Source: Fibrobacter sp. UWB16 | Lineage (GTDB): Bacteria > Fibrobacterota > Fibrobacteria > Fibrobacterales > Fibrobacteraceae | NCBI RefSeq assembly: GCF_900215325.1 | Contig: NZ_OCMS01000005.1 | Coordinates: 1 to 64,000 of the forward strand | Direction: 5' to 3' | DNA length: 64,000 bases | Part shown: piece by piece, positions 1 to 7,087 of the stretch | Layout: every line of letters begins with the position of its first letter | How positions within the stretch are numbered: the first letter of the stretch is position 1 | Program-made: the position numbers and the translations under genes | The notes under the pieces: model-generated | What the model saw: the letters and a program-made list of their open reading frames with translations, nothing else | Database searches by the model: none | Told to the model about the DNA's origin: nothing

Positions 1-50
1 CCGATGGTACCTGGCCCCCGGGCCCGGGAGAGTAGGTCGCCGCTGGATTC
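1..50 (+). rRNA. rrf: 5S ribosomal RNA, 3' end only
   Basis: The window opens inside a 5S rRNA gene. The segment reads like the 3' third of bacterial 5S rRNA, with the GATGGTA block and the GAGAGTAGGTCGCCGC block that close the molecule. The 5' part lies outside the window. A strong Rho-independent terminator follows at once, as expected at the end of an rRNA operon, so 16S and 23S probably lie upstream. Confidence 0.85.
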
Positions 51-52
51 AC

Positions 53-96
53 GCCCCGCCTGACGCAACACGTCGGGCGGGGCTTTTTCTTTTTTA
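53..96 (+). terminator. Rho-independent terminator of the rRNA operon
   Basis: GC-rich inverted repeat: GCCCCGCC at 53-60 pairs with GGGCGGGGC ending at 83, followed by a long T tract at 84-96. It directly follows the 5S end. Confidence 0.9.
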
Positions 97-495
97 TCCC
101 GCCCACGAATCCTGCTGGCGCGTCAAGGATTTCGCCGCGGCTCAGCAATAAGAATGAGTTACTTATTCTTGCTGCGTTCGCCTTGCATGTCATTTCCGCC
201 CCCTTGTCATCCCGGACTCCGTTCCGGGAGGGAATCGGCTTACATGGTTCCCCTTGCGGGCTCATCTGATCAGTTTTCTATGTTGTTTGTGTTTCTTTGT
301 CCGCACACCGATCGCGCTGGAAACCGCACCGTTATGCGGACCTGCAATATTTGCACCTTGAATATTCCAACCTGGCACATTGATAAAAAGTCCATAAAAA
401 TAGCCAAAAAGTATGTTCCCCGAGCTTGTAGTAATTGTAGTTTAAGAATGTAGGCAGGCGATGTCGCAGGCCTCGGGGTAAAAAAGGGGTCCACT
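97..495. other. Intergenic stretch with one dispersed palindrome, no recognised gene
   Basis: About 400 bases between the rRNA terminator and the 35-codon gene. The only clear structure is a dispersed palindrome at 205-235 (CCCGGACTCCGTTCCGGG core). Short open frames here show no ribosome site or recognisable protein. The last 200 bases may hold the promoter and a leader for the small gene at 496, but I could not assign boxes with confidence. Confidence 0.5.
205..235. repeat. Dispersed palindromic repeat, family A
   Basis: TGTCATCCCGGA-CTCC-GTTCCGGGAGGG type palindrome. The same consensus recurs at 4886-4940, 20349-20383, 23999-24040, 31627-31672, 32009-32056, 33076-33110, 46236-46265 and 48211-48243, in both orientations. 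Confidence 0.75.
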
Positions 496-603
496 ATGGA
501 AAACAAAGAGAATGAGATCAGGAAGCTGGGTCCCATTGTCGAGACTGTTTGGGGCGTGCTCCTGCTTGTGCTGAGCTGCGCGCTGATCGTCTTCGCCGCC
601 TAG
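496..603 (+). CDS. Small single-helix membrane protein (35 aa)
   Basis: A 35-codon frame starts at ATG 496, with a purine-rich AAAAAAGGGG site 6-15 bases upstream, and stops at TAG 601-603. The first 15 residues are charged (MENKENEIRKLG). The remaining 20 are almost wholly hydrophobic (VWGVLLLVLSCALIVFAA) and reach the C-terminus, so the protein looks tail-anchored with its N-terminus in the cytoplasm. A perfect hairpin terminator follows within 25 bases, giving a monocistronic unit behind the rRNA operon. I do not recognise the family. Such proteins often act as small subunits or modulators of membrane complexes, but nothing here names a partner. Translation is inferred from the ribosome site, composition and terminator. 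Confidence 0.6.
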   Translation: MENKENEIRKLGPIVETVWGVLLLVLSCALIVFAA

Positions 604-623
604 TCCTTGATCACGAAAAAAGA

Positions 624-660
624 AAGTCCGTCTGTGTTGGAGACGGACTTCTTTTATTTT
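624..660. terminator. Bidirectional terminator between the 35-aa gene and the radical SAM operon
   Basis: Perfect 10-bp stem AAGTCCGTCT (624-633) and AGACGGACTT (641-650) with a 7-base loop. T-rich sequence follows on the plus strand, and an A-rich flank (T-rich on the minus strand) precedes it, so it can end both the plus-strand small gene and the minus-strand operon ending at 677. Confidence 0.85.
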
Positions 661-676
661 GGAAGAAAAATATGTC

Positions 677-1750
677 TTACTGTTTTTGAGCTAGGACATC
701 AGAAAGCTTTGCAATACTCTCTTTTGCGCGTATTATGGCTGCAATGCTTTTTTCGTTGTCCCGTAAAACCTTGACCGCGTTCTTGTTGTTTGTCAGAGCG
801 CTACAGATTTCACAGACTCCGCAAAAGCTTTTGTTGAATTTGATATTGCTATGCTCTTCGACAAATTGACAGAGCTTTAGAGGGCCCAACTCATGGATTG
901 CATTGAGTAGAACGTCTTTGCTTGCTCTGTTCAGGATTGTCTTGATTTTCTCCTTATTTGTATCTCCGAGATCCAAGATTGCGTTGTTGTCCGACGGAAT
1001 GCCGCAACAAGCCCATACGTGTCCCAGCGGTGAAACAACCGGGTCGCTGACCGCCCATGGGCAGCAGCAGGCCAAATTCTCCTGATTTTCGATTGTGTCG
1101 AATTTCTCGCTATCGAGCGATGCGGCACGACCGCTTTTTTGTAGCGTGTTTTCGTAAATCTGATACAGGGTTTCTTTTCCTGGCTCCTTTATCTCGTTGT
1201 CTTCAGGTCCGTTTGAGACCGCAACTTCGATTTTTTCGCCTAAAAATTCCTGGATGTATGCTGGGACGATTTTGTCGTTATTCCCATGGCTATTAGCCAG
1301 AATGACGGATTCAAAACCAGCGCCTTTGCAGGCTTGCCAAGCATTGCGGATGTTTTCCAGTGGGACAAATGGCTCGTGGTAGTCATCAACGCTGAAATTG
1401 ATTTCGGTGAGCCCGACACTGCGGAATTTCTCAATATAGCGTTGTGCGCGTTCTAAGCTGGTTGCCCAGAAGGCGTTCGTGACAAGCCTAGTCTTTAGGA
1501 AGTTTAGCGTACAATAGCGGATGGTGCGGAATAGATCTTCACCGAGCAAAGTCGATTCGCCACCCGTAAATACGATCATCTTGACATCGTATTCTTTTAC
1601 AACTTGATCAATGCATTTCTGCATTTGTTCAAATTGAAGCTTGTTTTTTTTATTTGGGGTACAATTCATCAAACAGTGGGAGCACCTTGCGGTACACCCA
1701 TCTGTTGTCACGAAGCTAAATACCCCGCTTTTTAACGGAGTAATCTTCAT
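677..1750 (-). CDS. Radical SAM enzyme with SPASM-like C-terminal cysteines, putative peptide maturase
   Basis: The 357-residue product has the canonical radical SAM motif CxxxCxxC (C19, C23, C26) close to the N-terminus, followed by a FTGGEST motif typical of the SAM-binding glycine strand. The C-terminal third carries further cysteine clusters: CCC near 226, WACCG near 245, and a final CGVCEIC group. This resembles the auxiliary iron-sulfur (SPASM/Twitch) regions of enzymes that modify ribosomally made peptides or proteins. The ATG immediately follows the stop codon of the upstream proline-rich gene (TAA then ATG, no gap), implying translational coupling and a shared job. From this I infer that it modifies the upstream protein. 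A role on a different substrate or cofactor cannot be excluded; the exact subfamily is not recognised. Confidence 0.8.
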   Translation of the reverse strand: MKITPLKSGVFSFVTTDGCTARCSHCLMNCTPNKKNKLQFEQMQKCIDQVVKEYDVKMIVFTGGESTLLGEDLFRTIRYCTLNFLKTRLVTNAFWATSLERAQRYIEKFRSVGLTEINFSVDDYHEPFVPLENIRNAWQACKGAGFESVILANSHGNNDKIVPAYIQEFLGEKIEVAVSNGPEDNEIKEPGKETLYQIYENTLQKSGRAASLDSEKFDTIENQENLACCCPWAVSDPVVSPLGHVWACCGIPSDNNAILDLGDTNKEKIKTILNRASKDVLLNAIHELGPLKLCQFVEEHSNIKFNKSFCGVCEICSALTNNKNAVKVLRDNEKSIAAIIRAKESIAKLSDVLAQKQ

Positions 1751-2611
1751 TTATTTTTTTGCTTTCTTTGTTGCTTTGGGTTCGGCTCTTTTGGCGGCCT
1801 TCAACAGGTTCTTAAGCTGCTTTTCTGCATTGGCGGCAGCCTTCTTTTCGGCCTTGGTGGCGTTCTTGGGGAGCGCCTTGCGGATGCGCTGGACCTCTTC
1901 AAGCTGAAGTTCCAAATTGCCTCTTACATTGATTTCCGGAATGATCTTCGGCTTAATGCGAGATATGGATTCCGGCTTGACAAGGATATCTACCTTTGGC
2001 TTGATTTCTGGCTTGACGAGAATTGTCGGCTTGATCAAGGCTTCAGGCTTGACTACGATCTTTGTATTAATGCGTGAAATCGATTCCGGCTTAACGAGAG
2101 GCTTGACTGGATCTGGGCCGGGCGGAATCGGTTTAACCGTCGGTCTTGGAATAATAGGCGGTTTCGGATTGATAGGCGGCCTTGGAATAATGGGCGGTCT
2201 TTGGATAATGGGGGTAACAGGGACGACTGTTGTAATTGGCTTGATGGGAATTTTGGGCCTTACTTTTATGTCTGCTTTTACTGCCGGAATGACGGGTTTC
2301 AAAACTTCTGCGGGTTCAAAGTTACCCGGTATAAGTTTGCCAATTTCAACAAGAACGTTTTGCTGAAGAATTTCGTTATTGACCAATGATTCGGCGAGTG
2401 CTGCAGAAAGGCCTGCGCGCTTTGTTGCGGGAATGCCTTCCAACAGGTCGCCGATAGAAATATCTTTCTTCTTATCGTCTTTGGCGACGATATCGTCAAG
2501 ATCGAGTGCTTTGAGCACGTCTTTCGGGCTAGCGACAATTTCTTTTTTCAGACTTGTCGTGATATCTTTAATGATATCCTTTGTTTGAACTTTCTTTTTA
2601 GTTGTAGCCAT
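1751..2611 (-). CDS. Proline-rich repeat protein, putative substrate of the adjacent radical SAM enzyme
   Basis: The protein has 286 residues and no cysteine. Residues 1-100 form a charged, probably helical leader-like region. Residues 105-227 are very rich in Pro, Lys, Ile and Val, with short iterations such as PPIIPRPPINPKPP (139-152) and two copies of LVKPESISRI (172-181 and 210-219, spaced 38). The last 45 residues are Ala/Lys-rich. A strong AAGGAG ribosome site lies 6 bases before the ATG, and AT-rich sequence with TATA-like boxes lies farther upstream. There is no signal peptide. Leader plus repeated core next to a radical SAM gene is the layout of precursor-maturase pairs, but the core is longer and more basic than usual RiPP precursors. 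The alternative is a structural or nucleic-acid-binding protein. No function is established. Confidence 0.75.
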   Translation of the reverse strand: MATTKKKVQTKDIIKDITTSLKKEIVASPKDVLKALDLDDIVAKDDKKKDISIGDLLEGIPATKRAGLSAALAESLVNNEILQQNVLVEIGKLIPGNFEPAEVLKPVIPAVKADIKVRPKIPIKPITTVVPVTPIIQRPPIIPRPPINPKPPIIPRPTVKPIPPGPDPVKPLVKPESISRINTKIVVKPEALIKPTILVKPEIKPKVDILVKPESISRIKPKIIPEINVRGNLELQLEEVQRIRKALPKNATKAEKKAAANAEKQLKNLLKAAKRAEPKATKKAKK

Positions 2612-2707
2612 TTTTTTCTCCTTAGGGATTGTATATAATCAGGTATATATAACAGTGGAGAAAAAAGCAAATCATGAAATATTTTTTACAAACTTTGTTT
2701 TTAAGAA

Positions 2708-2738
2708 TAAAAAAACGGAATTCGTTCTGAATTCCGTT
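2708..2738 (-). terminator. Terminator of deaD
   Basis: Read on the minus strand, the perfect 9-bp stem ACGGAATTC / GAATTCCGT with a 5-base loop is followed by a run of seven T. It lies about 25 bases after the helicase stop codon. Confidence 0.85.
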
Positions 2739-2760
2739 AAGTTGTTTGTTTTGATTTGGC

Positions 2761-5211
2761 TTAGACTCTACCGAAACGGCGCGTCTTGCGGAACGGCTTA
2801 TCACCAAAGCTGCGCTCGTCGCGGTCTTTGCGGAAAGGCTTGTCTTCGAACTTGCCGGGTTTGCGGTCGGCGAATTGGCGTTCGCGACGTGCCTTGCGGT
2901 TTTCGAAAGGCTTGTCCCCAAAGCGATCACCGCCTTCGCGATTTTTGCGGAATCCGCCACGGCGTTCATCGTCGTGGAAACCTCCTTTGCGGTCGCGATG
3001 GAAACTGCGGCGTTCTTCGCGGCTAGCGTGCGGTCTTGTTCCCGGTGCGGGGCCCTCGGGAGGTTCGTCGGTCATCACGCGGAAGCGGGCGTCGTTGCCG
3101 CGGATTGTCATTTCGGACAAGATGTCGAGAACGTCTTGCGGAAGCGTGTTCGGGAGTTCAACGGTACTGAATTTGTCAAAGAGCTTGATACGGCCGATGT
3201 TGCTGCTGTTGATGTTTGCTTCGCCAGCGATTGCTCCCACGATGTCGCGCGGGGTAACGTGGTCAATGCGGCCGACGCCAAGATAGTAGCGCAAGAAGCC
3301 TTCTTCGACGCCGTTCAAGCCTTCCTTGCGTTCCTTACGCATGCGCTTCTGTTCTTCGCTATTGAGGCCGAAATCTTCGCCGTTGCCGAGGAAGTCTCTG
3401 CCGCTGCGGACCTTTTCGCGACGATCCTTCGGAGCTTCGAGCGGCGGGAGGTTCGGGAAGAGCGGCTGCTTTTTCTGGTACATCTTGATGACTGCTGCTG
3501 CGATGTCTTCGGCGGTCATTTCGTTGACGGAGCCATCTTCAAGGGCAACGCCATCCTTCATGTTGCAGCCTTCTGCGGCGAGTGCGCGGACGAGTTCCTT
3601 GAACTGGTCGAGTTCACCGTAGCTTACAACGCTCTTGACTTTAGCCTTGAATGCTTCGACGCGCTTCTTGCTGATTTGTTCGGAGGTCGGCATTTCCATC
3701 ACGTCAATCGGCTGGCGCGTAGCTTTTTCGATGGTCTTGAGCATGCGCTTTTCACGTGGCGTGATGAACAAGATGGCGTTACCGCTGCGGCCTGCACGGC
3801 CTGTACGGCCAATGCGGTGCACGTAGGATTCGGTGTCGTACGGAATGTCATAGTTCACAACGAGCGAAATTCGGTCCACGTCAATACCGCGGGCGGCGAC
3901 GTCTGTTGCGACGACGATGTCGAGCTTGCCCATCTTGAGGCGGTTGATGGTGCGTTCGCGCATGGACTGGGCGAGGTCGCCGTTGAGCGGAGCCACGTTG
4001 AATCCGCGGCTTTCGAGCTTTTCGGCCACTTCGGTGGTGTTCTGCTTGGTGCGCACGAAAATGAGTACGCCGTCAAATTCTTCGCCTTCGAGCACGCGGG
4101 CGAGCGCTTCGATCTTGTGTTCGTTTTTCACGAGCAAGTAGCGCTGGCAAATATTTTCGACCGTGGTCGTCTTGCCTTCGATGCGGGCTTCTTCGTATTC
4201 GCCCAAGTGTTGGTCGATAATCTTCTTGACGCTGTCCGGCATGGTGGCGCTAAATAGGGCGCGCTGGGCGTCGGCGGGGATTTCCTTGAGGATGGTTTCC
4301 ACGTCTTCCATAAAGCCCATGTCGAGCATTTCGTCAGCTTCGTCGAGGACGATTGCCTTGACCGCTCCGAGCGAAATAGAACCGCGCTTGATATGGTCTA
4401 TCAAACGGCCCGGTGTGGCAACGACGATGCTTGCCTTGCGCTTGAGGGCGCGCAACTGGATAGCGATATCCTGACCGCCATAGACTGGGACAACCGTCAC
4501 GTTTTGCATCTTGACGGCGTATTGCTGGATGGCATCTGAAACCTGGATCGCAAGTTCGCGTGTCGGCGTGAGCACGAGCATGGACGTTTCGCGTCCGTTG
4601 AAGTTGATGCGCGAAAGGAGCGGAAGCGAGAATGCTGCCGTCTTGCCGGTACCTGTCTGTGCTGTTCCGAGAAGGTTTGCGCCCTGCAAAAGTGCCGGGA
4701 TGGCCTTAGCCTGAATGGGCGAGGGCGTTTCGTAGCCGGCGAGCTTGACCGCTTCAAGAACTTCCGGAGAGAGACCGAGATCGTCAAACGTCACCAATGA
4801 TTCGTCGCCGACATCTTCTTCGTCTGCGGAGTCTTCATTTAAGTTTGCCGAGCTTGTCGAAGCTACAGAAACTTCATCAGCGGTTGTGTCATGCCTGGCT
4901 TCTGTCACCCCGGATTTATTCCGGGGGGGCATCTCCTTTTCAATATCACTTGTCACATCGTCATCGTCGATAAATTCGATTTTTTCGCCTTTCTTAATCT
5001 TGGAATTTGCGCCAGATTCCAGAACCTCGCCGTTGTCGTCAACGACAATGCCATCCGGATTTGCTGCAAAGAATGCGGCTTCGTCTGCCTGGTCTTCGTC
5101 TGCTCCGCCTGCGATGGCGTTCAAGAACGCATCCGCTTCGAGCTGCAATTTAGAGTTGTCGTTATTTTCCGGAACGTCGATTTCCGGGCCGCAAGAAATA
5201 TCTTCTGCCAT
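2761..5211 (-). CDS. deaD: DEAD-box ATP-dependent RNA helicase with DbpA-type RNA-binding domain
   Basis: The 816-residue protein unwinds structured RNA, probably in ribosome assembly and cold adaptation, as DeaD/CsdA does. After an acidic N-terminal extension of about 138 residues come the Q motif (SPIQAKAIP, 164-172), Walker A (AQTGTGKT, 184-191), VLDEADEMLD (motif II), SAT (motif III) and HRIGRTGRAG (motif VI). A DbpA RNA-binding fold follows (VGRIDHVTPRDIVGAI), then an Arg/Gly/Asp-rich basic tail. The start is supported by AAGGTGACTT before the ATG. Residues 93-108 are encoded by a copy of the dispersed palindrome A and residues 117-123 by a second repeat type, so the linker appears built from inserted repeats. 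The gene stands alone on the minus strand with its own terminator. Confidence 0.95.
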   Translation of the reverse strand: MAEDISCGPEIDVPENNDNSKLQLEADAFLNAIAGGADEDQADEAAFFAANPDGIVVDDNGEVLESGANSKIKKGEKIEFIDDDDVTSDIEKEMPPRNKSGVTEARHDTTADEVSVASTSSANLNEDSADEEDVGDESLVTFDDLGLSPEVLEAVKLAGYETPSPIQAKAIPALLQGANLLGTAQTGTGKTAAFSLPLLSRINFNGRETSMLVLTPTRELAIQVSDAIQQYAVKMQNVTVVPVYGGQDIAIQLRALKRKASIVVATPGRLIDHIKRGSISLGAVKAIVLDEADEMLDMGFMEDVETILKEIPADAQRALFSATMPDSVKKIIDQHLGEYEEARIEGKTTTVENICQRYLLVKNEHKIEALARVLEGEEFDGVLIFVRTKQNTTEVAEKLESRGFNVAPLNGDLAQSMRERTINRLKMGKLDIVVATDVAARGIDVDRISLVVNYDIPYDTESYVHRIGRTGRAGRSGNAILFITPREKRMLKTIEKATRQPIDVMEMPTSEQISKKRVEAFKAKVKSVVSYGELDQFKELVRALAAEGCNMKDGVALEDGSVNEMTAEDIAAAVIKMYQKKQPLFPNLPPLEAPKDRREKVRSGRDFLGNGEDFGLNSEEQKRMRKERKEGLNGVEEGFLRYYLGVGRIDHVTPRDIVGAIAGEANINSSNIGRIKLFDKFSTVELPNTLPQDVLDILSEMTIRGNDARFRVMTDEPPEGPAPGTRPHASREERRSFHRDRKGGFHDDERRGGFRKNREGGDRFGDKPFENRKARRERQFADRKPGKFEDKPFRKDRDERSFGDKPFRKTRRFGRV
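4886..4940. repeat. Palindromic repeat A inside the deaD coding sequence
   Basis: The block TGTCATGCC...CCCCGGATTTATTCCGGGG...GGCATCTCC matches the intergenic family A palindromes, yet lies in frame within deaD and encodes roughly residues 91-108 in the N-terminal extension. A short, less certain repeat (TTTGCCGAGCTTGTCGAAGC, 4844-4863) lies beside it and encodes ASTSSAN on the minus strand. Confidence 0.75.
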
Positions 5212-6598: not shown

Positions 6599-6623
6599 CC
6601 CTGTGTCGCGGTTTGCTCGTGGG

Positions 6624-6658
6624 TATAAAAAAAGAACTTGTCTTTCGACAAGTCCTTT
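6624..6658 (-). terminator. Terminator of the downstream tRNA-Glu copy
   Basis: ACTTGTC (6636-6642) pairs with GACAAGT (6647-6653) across a TTTC loop; on the minus strand it is followed by TTCTTTTTTT. It lies directly after tRNA-Glu at 6662-6734. Confidence 0.85.
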
Positions 6659-6661
6659 TTA

Positions 6662-6734
6662 TACCCCCAAGCGGTTTCGAACCGCTGTTGCGGGAATGAA
6701 AATCCCGAGTCCTGGGCCACTAGACGATAGGGGC
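6662..6734 (-). tRNA. tRNA-Glu (TTC), copy 1
   Basis: On the minus strand: acceptor GCCCCTA / TGGGGGT, the D-arm start TCGTCTAGTGGCCCAGGAC typical of glutamate tRNA, anticodon loop TTTTCAT (anticodon TTC), and T arm AGCGGTTCGAAACCGCT. It is identical to the copy at 6940-7012; the pair arose by duplication of the whole tRNA-terminator segment. Confidence 0.95.
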
Positions 6735-6901
6735 GTTTTGTGTGAGGACAAATATAGGATTTTATTGAATAATGTCAAGGGTGGGTTGATAATTTTTTTT
6801 GAGGGGGCGGGATCTTTTTTATACCGCTTTGGGCGGTTGAAAAAAAAGACCGACTTTTCAGTCGATCTTTTTTATACCCTTTGTCGCGGTTTGCTCGAGG
6901 G

Positions 6902-6938
6902 TATAAAAAAAGAACCTGTCTTTCGACAAGTCCTTTTT
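6902..6938 (-). terminator. Terminator of tRNA-Glu copy 2
   Basis: Copy of the 6624-6658 hairpin. One base of the stem has changed (ACCTGTC against GACAAGT), which weakens but does not abolish it. A further duplicated hairpin lies at 6841-6876. Confidence 0.75.
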
Positions 6939-6939
6939 A

Positions 6940-7012
6940 TACCCCCAAGCGGTTTCGAACCGCTGTTGCGGGAATGAAAATCCCGAGTCCTGGGCCACTA
7001 GACGATAGGGGC
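6940..7012 (-). tRNA. tRNA-Glu (TTC), copy 2
   Basis: Same 73-base sequence as the 6662-6734 copy, anticodon TTC. As the upstream copy on the minus strand it is the one nearest any promoter in the 7013-7087 gap. Confidence 0.95.
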
Positions 7013-7087
7013 GTTTTGCGTGCGCCAAATATAGATGTTTATAGAAAATTGTCAAGGGTTTTTGTTTGATTTTTTTATTTTTCTCTC

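Follow-up and report, generated by a model that had tools for sequence, protein, structure and literature searches.

A putative two-gene maturation cassette in Fibrobacter pairs an EpeE-type radical SAM enzyme with a long Pro/Ile-rich protein

Introduction

Why does the gene of a radical S-adenosylmethionine (SAM) enzyme begin exactly where the gene of a long proline-rich protein ends? This arrangement lies on the reverse strand at positions 677-2611 of the window, the 64,000-nucleotide stretch of Fibrobacter sp. UWB16 analyzed here (assembly GCF_900215325.1, contig NZ_OCMS01000005.1, positions 1 to 64,000). An enzyme of the EpeE/YydG clade that has every cysteine of EpeE's catalytic scheme is tied genetically to a protein built of leader, core, and tail. 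We propose, with a probability of roughly 0.6, that the two genes form a maturation cassette resembling those of ribosomally synthesized and post-translationally modified peptides (RiPPs), in which the enzyme would install D-residues, probably at isoleucine or valine, in the core of its partner.

Results

The enzyme gene (677-1750, reverse strand) encodes 357 residues and matches the Pfam family Radical_SAM (E 4.6e-14). Its best NCBIfam family is TIGR04078 (rSAM_yydG; 122 bits, cut-off 300), and no Fibrobacterota genome contains a TIGR04078 match above that cut-off. Judged by its sequence, the enzyme is a relative of the peptide epimerase YydG (EpeE), not an equivalog. EpeE is its sole PDB sequence match at E < 0.001 (1.5e-18, entries 8ai1/8ai2). 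It is also the top Foldseek match (E 2.8e-7) of a low-confidence AlphaFold model of the full-length enzyme, built from 3 sequences with a mean predicted local distance difference test score (pLDDT) of 52. Because the enzyme groups with the EpeE/YydG peptide epimerases, epimerization is the first expectation for its reaction. No relatives were found in phages.

Conservation of the cysteines was assessed in an alignment of 16 EpeE-type enzymes, including a Macrococcus YydG annotated next to YydF. The enzyme's cysteines include C19/C23/C26, C228/C229/C230, C248/C249, and C310/C313/C316. Invariant in the alignment are C19, C23, C26, GGE at 63-65, N92, W95, S120, H125, C230, C248, C249, C313, and C316. 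The CxxxCxxC motif from C19 to C26 (1673-1696) is that of the SAM [4Fe-4S] cluster. Within the C248-C249 pair (1004-1009), C249 aligns with C223 of EpeE, the proposed hydrogen donor, in both the 8ai1 and the MAFFT alignments; a C223A mutant of EpeE is named in the titles of 8ai3 and 8ai4. We infer that C230 (1061-1063), C248, C313, and C316 (the last two at 803-814) are the probable ligands of a second cluster, and that C249 would serve as hydrogen donor. The broad two-cluster pattern of EpeE-like enzymes is present, namely the CxxxCxxC motif, a donor cysteine at the C223 position, and conserved second-cluster cysteines. The EpeE mechanism is taken here from a review (PMC8326336) and from the PDB titles; according to the review, catalysis uses a critical cysteine, and the residues epimerized in the epipeptide are Val36 and Ile44.

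The partner gene (1751-2611, reverse strand) encodes 286 residues rich in Pro, Ile, and Lys, followed by a stop codon. The ATG of the enzyme comes directly after its TAA stop, with 0 nt in between. An AAGGAG ribosome-binding site (2618-2623) lies 6 nt before the precursor ATG, and a bidirectional terminator-like stem-loop (623-651) lies 3' of the pair. A second terminator-like stem-loop (2738-2714, reverse strand) stands between the pair and the upstream DEAD-box helicase gene. A preliminary description, made from the sequence alone, had reported an abutting gene pair sharing a single ribosome site and a single terminator, a cysteine-free protein of 286 residues carrying LVKPESISRI twice, 38 residues apart, and a radical SAM enzyme with C19/C23/C26 and C-terminal cysteine clusters. 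The sequence bears out all three observations, and the Pfam match agrees with the third.

This adjacency was followed through a survey of 168 genomes of Fibrobacterota. Seven of them, all in the genus of the window, contain a match to the enzyme model, and the same 7 are recovered when the 55-residue tail of the partner is the query. In every one the partner gene adjoins the enzyme gene, directly upstream of it. Since the pair recurs in 7/168 genomes, its adjacency is more than chance.

The partner itself has three parts. The leader (residues 1-98, 2318-2611) is helical, the core (residues 99-232, 1916-2317) is hypervariable, is predicted to be disordered, and consists of 24% Pro, 19% Ile, and 12% Val, and the Lys/Ala-rich tail (residues 233-286, 1754-1915) is conserved and forms two predicted helices. 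The AlphaFold model (3 sequences, mean pLDDT 56) places helices at residues 10-93 and 229-276 with low confidence between them; block means of pLDDT in the leader helices are mostly 63-79. Foldseek returned no match to this model at E < 1, and the partner, its leader included, has no Pfam or NCBIfam match. Within the core, Tandem Repeats Finder reports a repeat with a period of 18 nt (6 residues) at 2141-2209, corresponding to runs of the PPIIPRPP type. The two copies of LVKPESISRI begin at residues 172 (2069-2098) and 210 (1955-1984).

Comparison between lineages indicates which of these parts are held constant. The core keeps its composition in all lineages (24-42% Pro, 17-27% Ile), while its sequence and length vary, from 70 to 134 residues; examples are PPIIPRPPINPKPPIIPRP in the window, PPIPPVPKPPIPPIPK in genome G038, NPIIPIIDPIIPIIDPIIP in G034, and PRIPLDPKIPIPDPRIPLDPKIP in G134. 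Residue spacing is not conserved among the cores, and aromatic residues are few. Between lineages the enzyme is 60-76% identical, compared with 52-76% for the tail, 20-36% for the core, and 11-72% for the leader. Variation in the leader is therefore intermediate between that of core and tail, and the G134 leader is quite different. The same contrast appears at short distance. When the 1935-nt pair of the window is compared with that of G050, one 90-nt core stretch accounts for 16 mismatches and 12 gap columns, against 15 mismatches elsewhere.

Related enzymes outside the phylum were found by a tblastn search of plasmids, which returned 11 records, the closest (35-37% identity) from Klebsiella, Rhizobium, and Collinsella. 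We viewed the neighborhoods of 10 of the 11, together with a Tropicibacter record found with the enzyme of a second Fibrobacter system (type B, described below; the system of the window is type A). The Macrococcus locus is an ordinary epipeptide cluster, with a 51-residue YydF beside YydG. Every other locus viewed has an unannotated protein of about 170-370 residues near the enzyme, most with a low-complexity stretch: ANANAVANANALANAN in Klebsiella, NANAGANANALANANANANANAN in Rhizobium, NANAVTNANIILNANG in Collinsella, and NVNTNLNVSTNANFNYNANYNYN in Thermus. Val/Ala-rich runs occur in the neighboring proteins of Halocatena, Tropicibacter, Eleftheria, Streptomyces, and Enterococcus. The precursor gene usually lies directly upstream of the enzyme gene; the exceptions are Rhizobium (3 kb upstream) and Eleftheria (downstream).

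Several of these loci carry additional genes. A methyltransferase is present at the Klebsiella, Rhizobium, Collinsella, and Thermus loci, that of Klebsiella being HemK-like (TIGR00537, 64 bits, below the family cut-off). An SdpI protein occurs at the Klebsiella locus (PF13630) and, by annotation, at the Thermus locus. The Rhizobium locus adds a RiPP radical SAM C-methyltransferase (TIGR03975, 370 bits against a cut-off of 282). DUF5969 forms the C-terminal end of the precursors in Rhizobium and Collinsella.

The type-A leader is homologous to the Rhizobium, Collinsella, and Klebsiella leaders (hhalign score 35.05, compared with 16.7 for the best of 200 column shuffles and 8.2 for the reversed profile). 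The enzyme tree joins the enzymes of the same three genera with the Fibrobacter type-A enzymes (support 98/96). Since leader homology and enzyme tree agree, enzyme and leader tell one story, in which the core has been exchanged. A relationship between the partner tail and DUF5969 was rejected (hhalign probability 0.1).

As a separate observation, the precursors beside EpeE-like enzymes on the Klebsiella, Rhizobium, Collinsella, and Thermus plasmids (loci L068, L069, L070, and L075) contain Asn-Ala repeats or are rich in Asn. The Klebsiella locus also encodes a lysine acyltransferase and an ATP-binding cassette (ABC) peptidase transporter.

Discussion

We propose that the leader, and perhaps the tail as well, docks the enzyme. 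A 5'-deoxyadenosyl radical would then abstract the Cα hydrogen of residues in the core, with Ile or Val beside Pro as the likeliest sites and Lys as another, and C249 would return a hydrogen from the opposite face to give D-residues; this step is read from the clade of the enzyme. The result, either whole or excised, would be a Pro-rich polypeptide with D-amino acids, rigid and resistant to proteases. A polytheonamide-like helix is unlikely for a Pro/Ile core because proline has no amide hydrogen, and our guess is a stiff, protease-resistant rod.

Several observations weigh against this proposal. The score of the enzyme is far below the YydG cut-off, so neither the reaction nor the choice of sites can be read from family membership. 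With a mean pLDDT of 52 for the enzyme model, we claim no active-site geometry from it. The position of EpeE D210 is D or E in the Fibrobacter type-A enzymes and neither in Klebsiella or Rhizobium. The type-A leader itself gives no match in NCBIfam or Pfam. Beside the Fibrobacter pairs viewed, no transporter, protease, peptidase, or immunity gene was seen. Finally, genomes G004 (99% complete) and G118 (74% complete) encode leader-bearing proteins that have no enzyme adjacent. The G004 protein (L120:1217-2233), in the same place behind a DEAD-box helicase gene, has 338 residues, two leader-like helix regions, and WPCGTPW stretches. That of G118 (L119:2718-3212), from another genus, has 164 residues, with the leader and a LVKPQIPIKPQIPIKTQILVKPDI (LVKPQIPIKPQIPIK) core but no Lys/Ala tail. 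In these two genomes, matches to the EpeE-type alignment are only partial. The two proteins count against a strict leader-enzyme pairing but leave that of tail and enzyme intact.

The low family score also fits an alternative in which the same enzyme acts on the same substrate by other radical chemistry, forming a crosslink, a desaturation, or a C-C or C-N bond in the core. Two-cluster radical SAM enzymes catalyze many chemistries, and Lys and Pro in the core could be targets, although thioethers are excluded by the lack of Cys. Conversely, an epimerase is both the sole PDB relative of the enzyme and its top match by fold, the donor position C249 is invariant, and the cores offer neither conserved spacing nor many aromatic residues for crosslinks. 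We regard this alternative as unlikely. Epimerization brings no net mass change, and a loss of 2 Da would speak for another chemistry; an unshifted mass, which the preliminary description had named as counterevidence, would therefore not count against epimerization.

The conservation of the tail, the best-kept part of the partner, would also fit a finished cellular protein, perhaps a rod-like linker whose Lys/Ala tail might bind a polyanion, with the enzyme acting on something else. The enzyme-free leader proteins of G004 and G118 and the lack of export machinery near the Fibrobacter pairs point the same way. However, the two genes co-occur perfectly and are adjacent in 7/7 genomes, and the leader is common to precursors beside sister enzymes, which makes this explanation quite improbable. 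That the cassette is a non-functional relic of an older cluster after loss of methyltransferase, immunity, and export genes, as its retention in only 7/168 genomes and the larger sister systems might suggest, is very improbable, given two intact frames with ribosome site and terminator and an enzyme that stays 60-76% identical between lineages and keeps all catalytic cysteines while the core changes.

Epimerization in the core of a long partner thus remains our preferred reading, and it agrees in large part with the preliminary description, which had proposed a maturation system. Its pairing of enzyme and substrate is supported by the perfect co-occurrence and adjacency, a variable core between conserved flanks is supported as well, and its failure to match the protein to a RiPP class still holds, as we found none described that fits. 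It had divided the protein into a leader and a repeated core; both are present, but the protein is better described as leader, core, and tail. The expectation that the core varies while the N-terminal leader is conserved was half right, since the core does vary and the tail is better kept than the leader. Homologues of the enzyme without the repeat protein, which it had named as counterevidence, do exist; other leader-core precursors adjoin them, which strengthens the idea of maturation.

Among the closest known systems are the epipeptides of Bacillus (EpeXE(PAB)/YydFG), whose enzyme shares the fold, the sequence clade, the two-cluster cysteine pattern, and the donor cysteine (C223, here C249). 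The epimerized residues there are Val and Ile (PMC8326336), both abundant in the Fibrobacter core. Their precursors, in contrast, are about 50 residues long, with the core at the C terminus behind a short leader, whereas the Fibrobacter partner has 286 residues with an internal core and a tail. The epipeptide operon also has peptidase and ABC genes, and none was seen beside the Fibrobacter pairs. Sactipeptides and ranthipeptides are ruled out, as a precursor with 0 Cys has no thioether donor.

Proteusins (polytheonamide, aeronamide), with a PoyD-type epimerase and an NHLP leader, resemble the partner in their long helical leader and repetitive core, and the sister plasmid systems share with them methyltransferases and Asn-rich cores. 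The Fibrobacter core differs in being internal and Pro/Ile-rich. The type-A leader has no direct NCBIfam match to an NHLP-type leader; one homologous leader, that of Rhizobium, matches the NHLP-related RiPP peptide family TIGR04509 at E 2e-4, below its cut-off. A further likeness is to the DUF5969-tailed Asn-Ala precursors of Rhizobium and Collinsella (Klebsiella being similar), with a homologous leader, a sister enzyme clade, and the same leader-core-tail layout. They differ in the Asn-Ala core, the unrelated tail, and the presence of a methyltransferase, to which some add SdpI-type genes. One type of leader and one enzyme clade would serve Asn-Ala-repeat cores in other phyla and, in Fibrobacter, a Pro/Ile core accompanied by this enzyme only.

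In polytheonamide, PoyE N-methylates Asn, a GNINVN insert matches one helical turn, and the N-methyl-Asn chain stabilizes the helix (PMC11285071). By analogy, the methyltransferases of the Asn-Ala systems suggest polytheonamide-like helices. A wider, tentative reading, to which we give somewhat less than an even chance, is an undescribed RiPP lineage found in several phyla, whose EpeE-type epimerases would modify long precursors with a folded leader, a repetitive core, and a C-terminal domain. Its cores would be Asn-Ala (where HemK-like methyltransferases may N-methylate Asn, giving possibly independently evolved polytheonamide-like helices), Val/Ala-rich, or, in Fibrobacter, Pro/Ile-rich and matured to a protein-sized rod bearing D-residues.

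The familiar part of the cassette is the EpeE-type enzyme; the unfamiliar part, within the open-access literature, is the substrate family. Searches of that literature found neither long-leader EpeE-type systems nor DUF5969 described, which is weak evidence of absence. The two-gene cassette points to an undescribed family of putatively modified proteins. If the proposal is correct, radical SAM epimerization extends far past the small Bacillus epipeptides to long proteins and Pro-rich cores, and the Asn-Ala repeats of the sister systems could form polytheonamide-like helices through a different epimerase. The proposal would also credit Fibrobacterota with a RiPP-type cassette; an anaerobe genome survey that covered one Fibrobacteres genome listed none (PMC4289311). 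With only two genes, a near-constant enzyme, and cores that vary naturally, the cassette could then help to show what an EpeE-type enzyme accepts.

Fibrobacter also has the second EpeE-like system mentioned above. Type-B loci (L053-L060, e.g., L059:5752-8144 and L057:5693-8084) comprise a precursor of 120-208 residues, the enzyme, and a partner of 275-290 residues that contains Cys but has no convincing family match. Their precursors have weak similarity to NHLP (Os17), with E 0.0023 in one, and some cores consist of IIIIIVVNPPIP. Homology between type-B and type-A leaders is weak only (hhalign probability 1.6, score just above the shuffles) and is not claimed.

Other features were observed near the pair. 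At the contig start (1-60), the sequence resembles by eye a 5S rRNA at its 3' end, and a GC-rich terminator comes next; an Rfam scan of positions 1-3000 gave no match, including at this incomplete end. In the stretch from the contig start to the pair, ahead of the stem-loop at 623-651, a forward-strand open reading frame (496-603) encodes a membrane-peptide-like sequence of 35 residues, MENKENEIRKLGPIVETVWGVLLLVLSCALIVFAA. Further along, at 6603-7069, overlapping open reading frames repeat the same peptide, LSTSPFYTPKRFRTAVAGMKIPSPGPLDDRGVL, and the region therefore contains a direct repeat of DNA.
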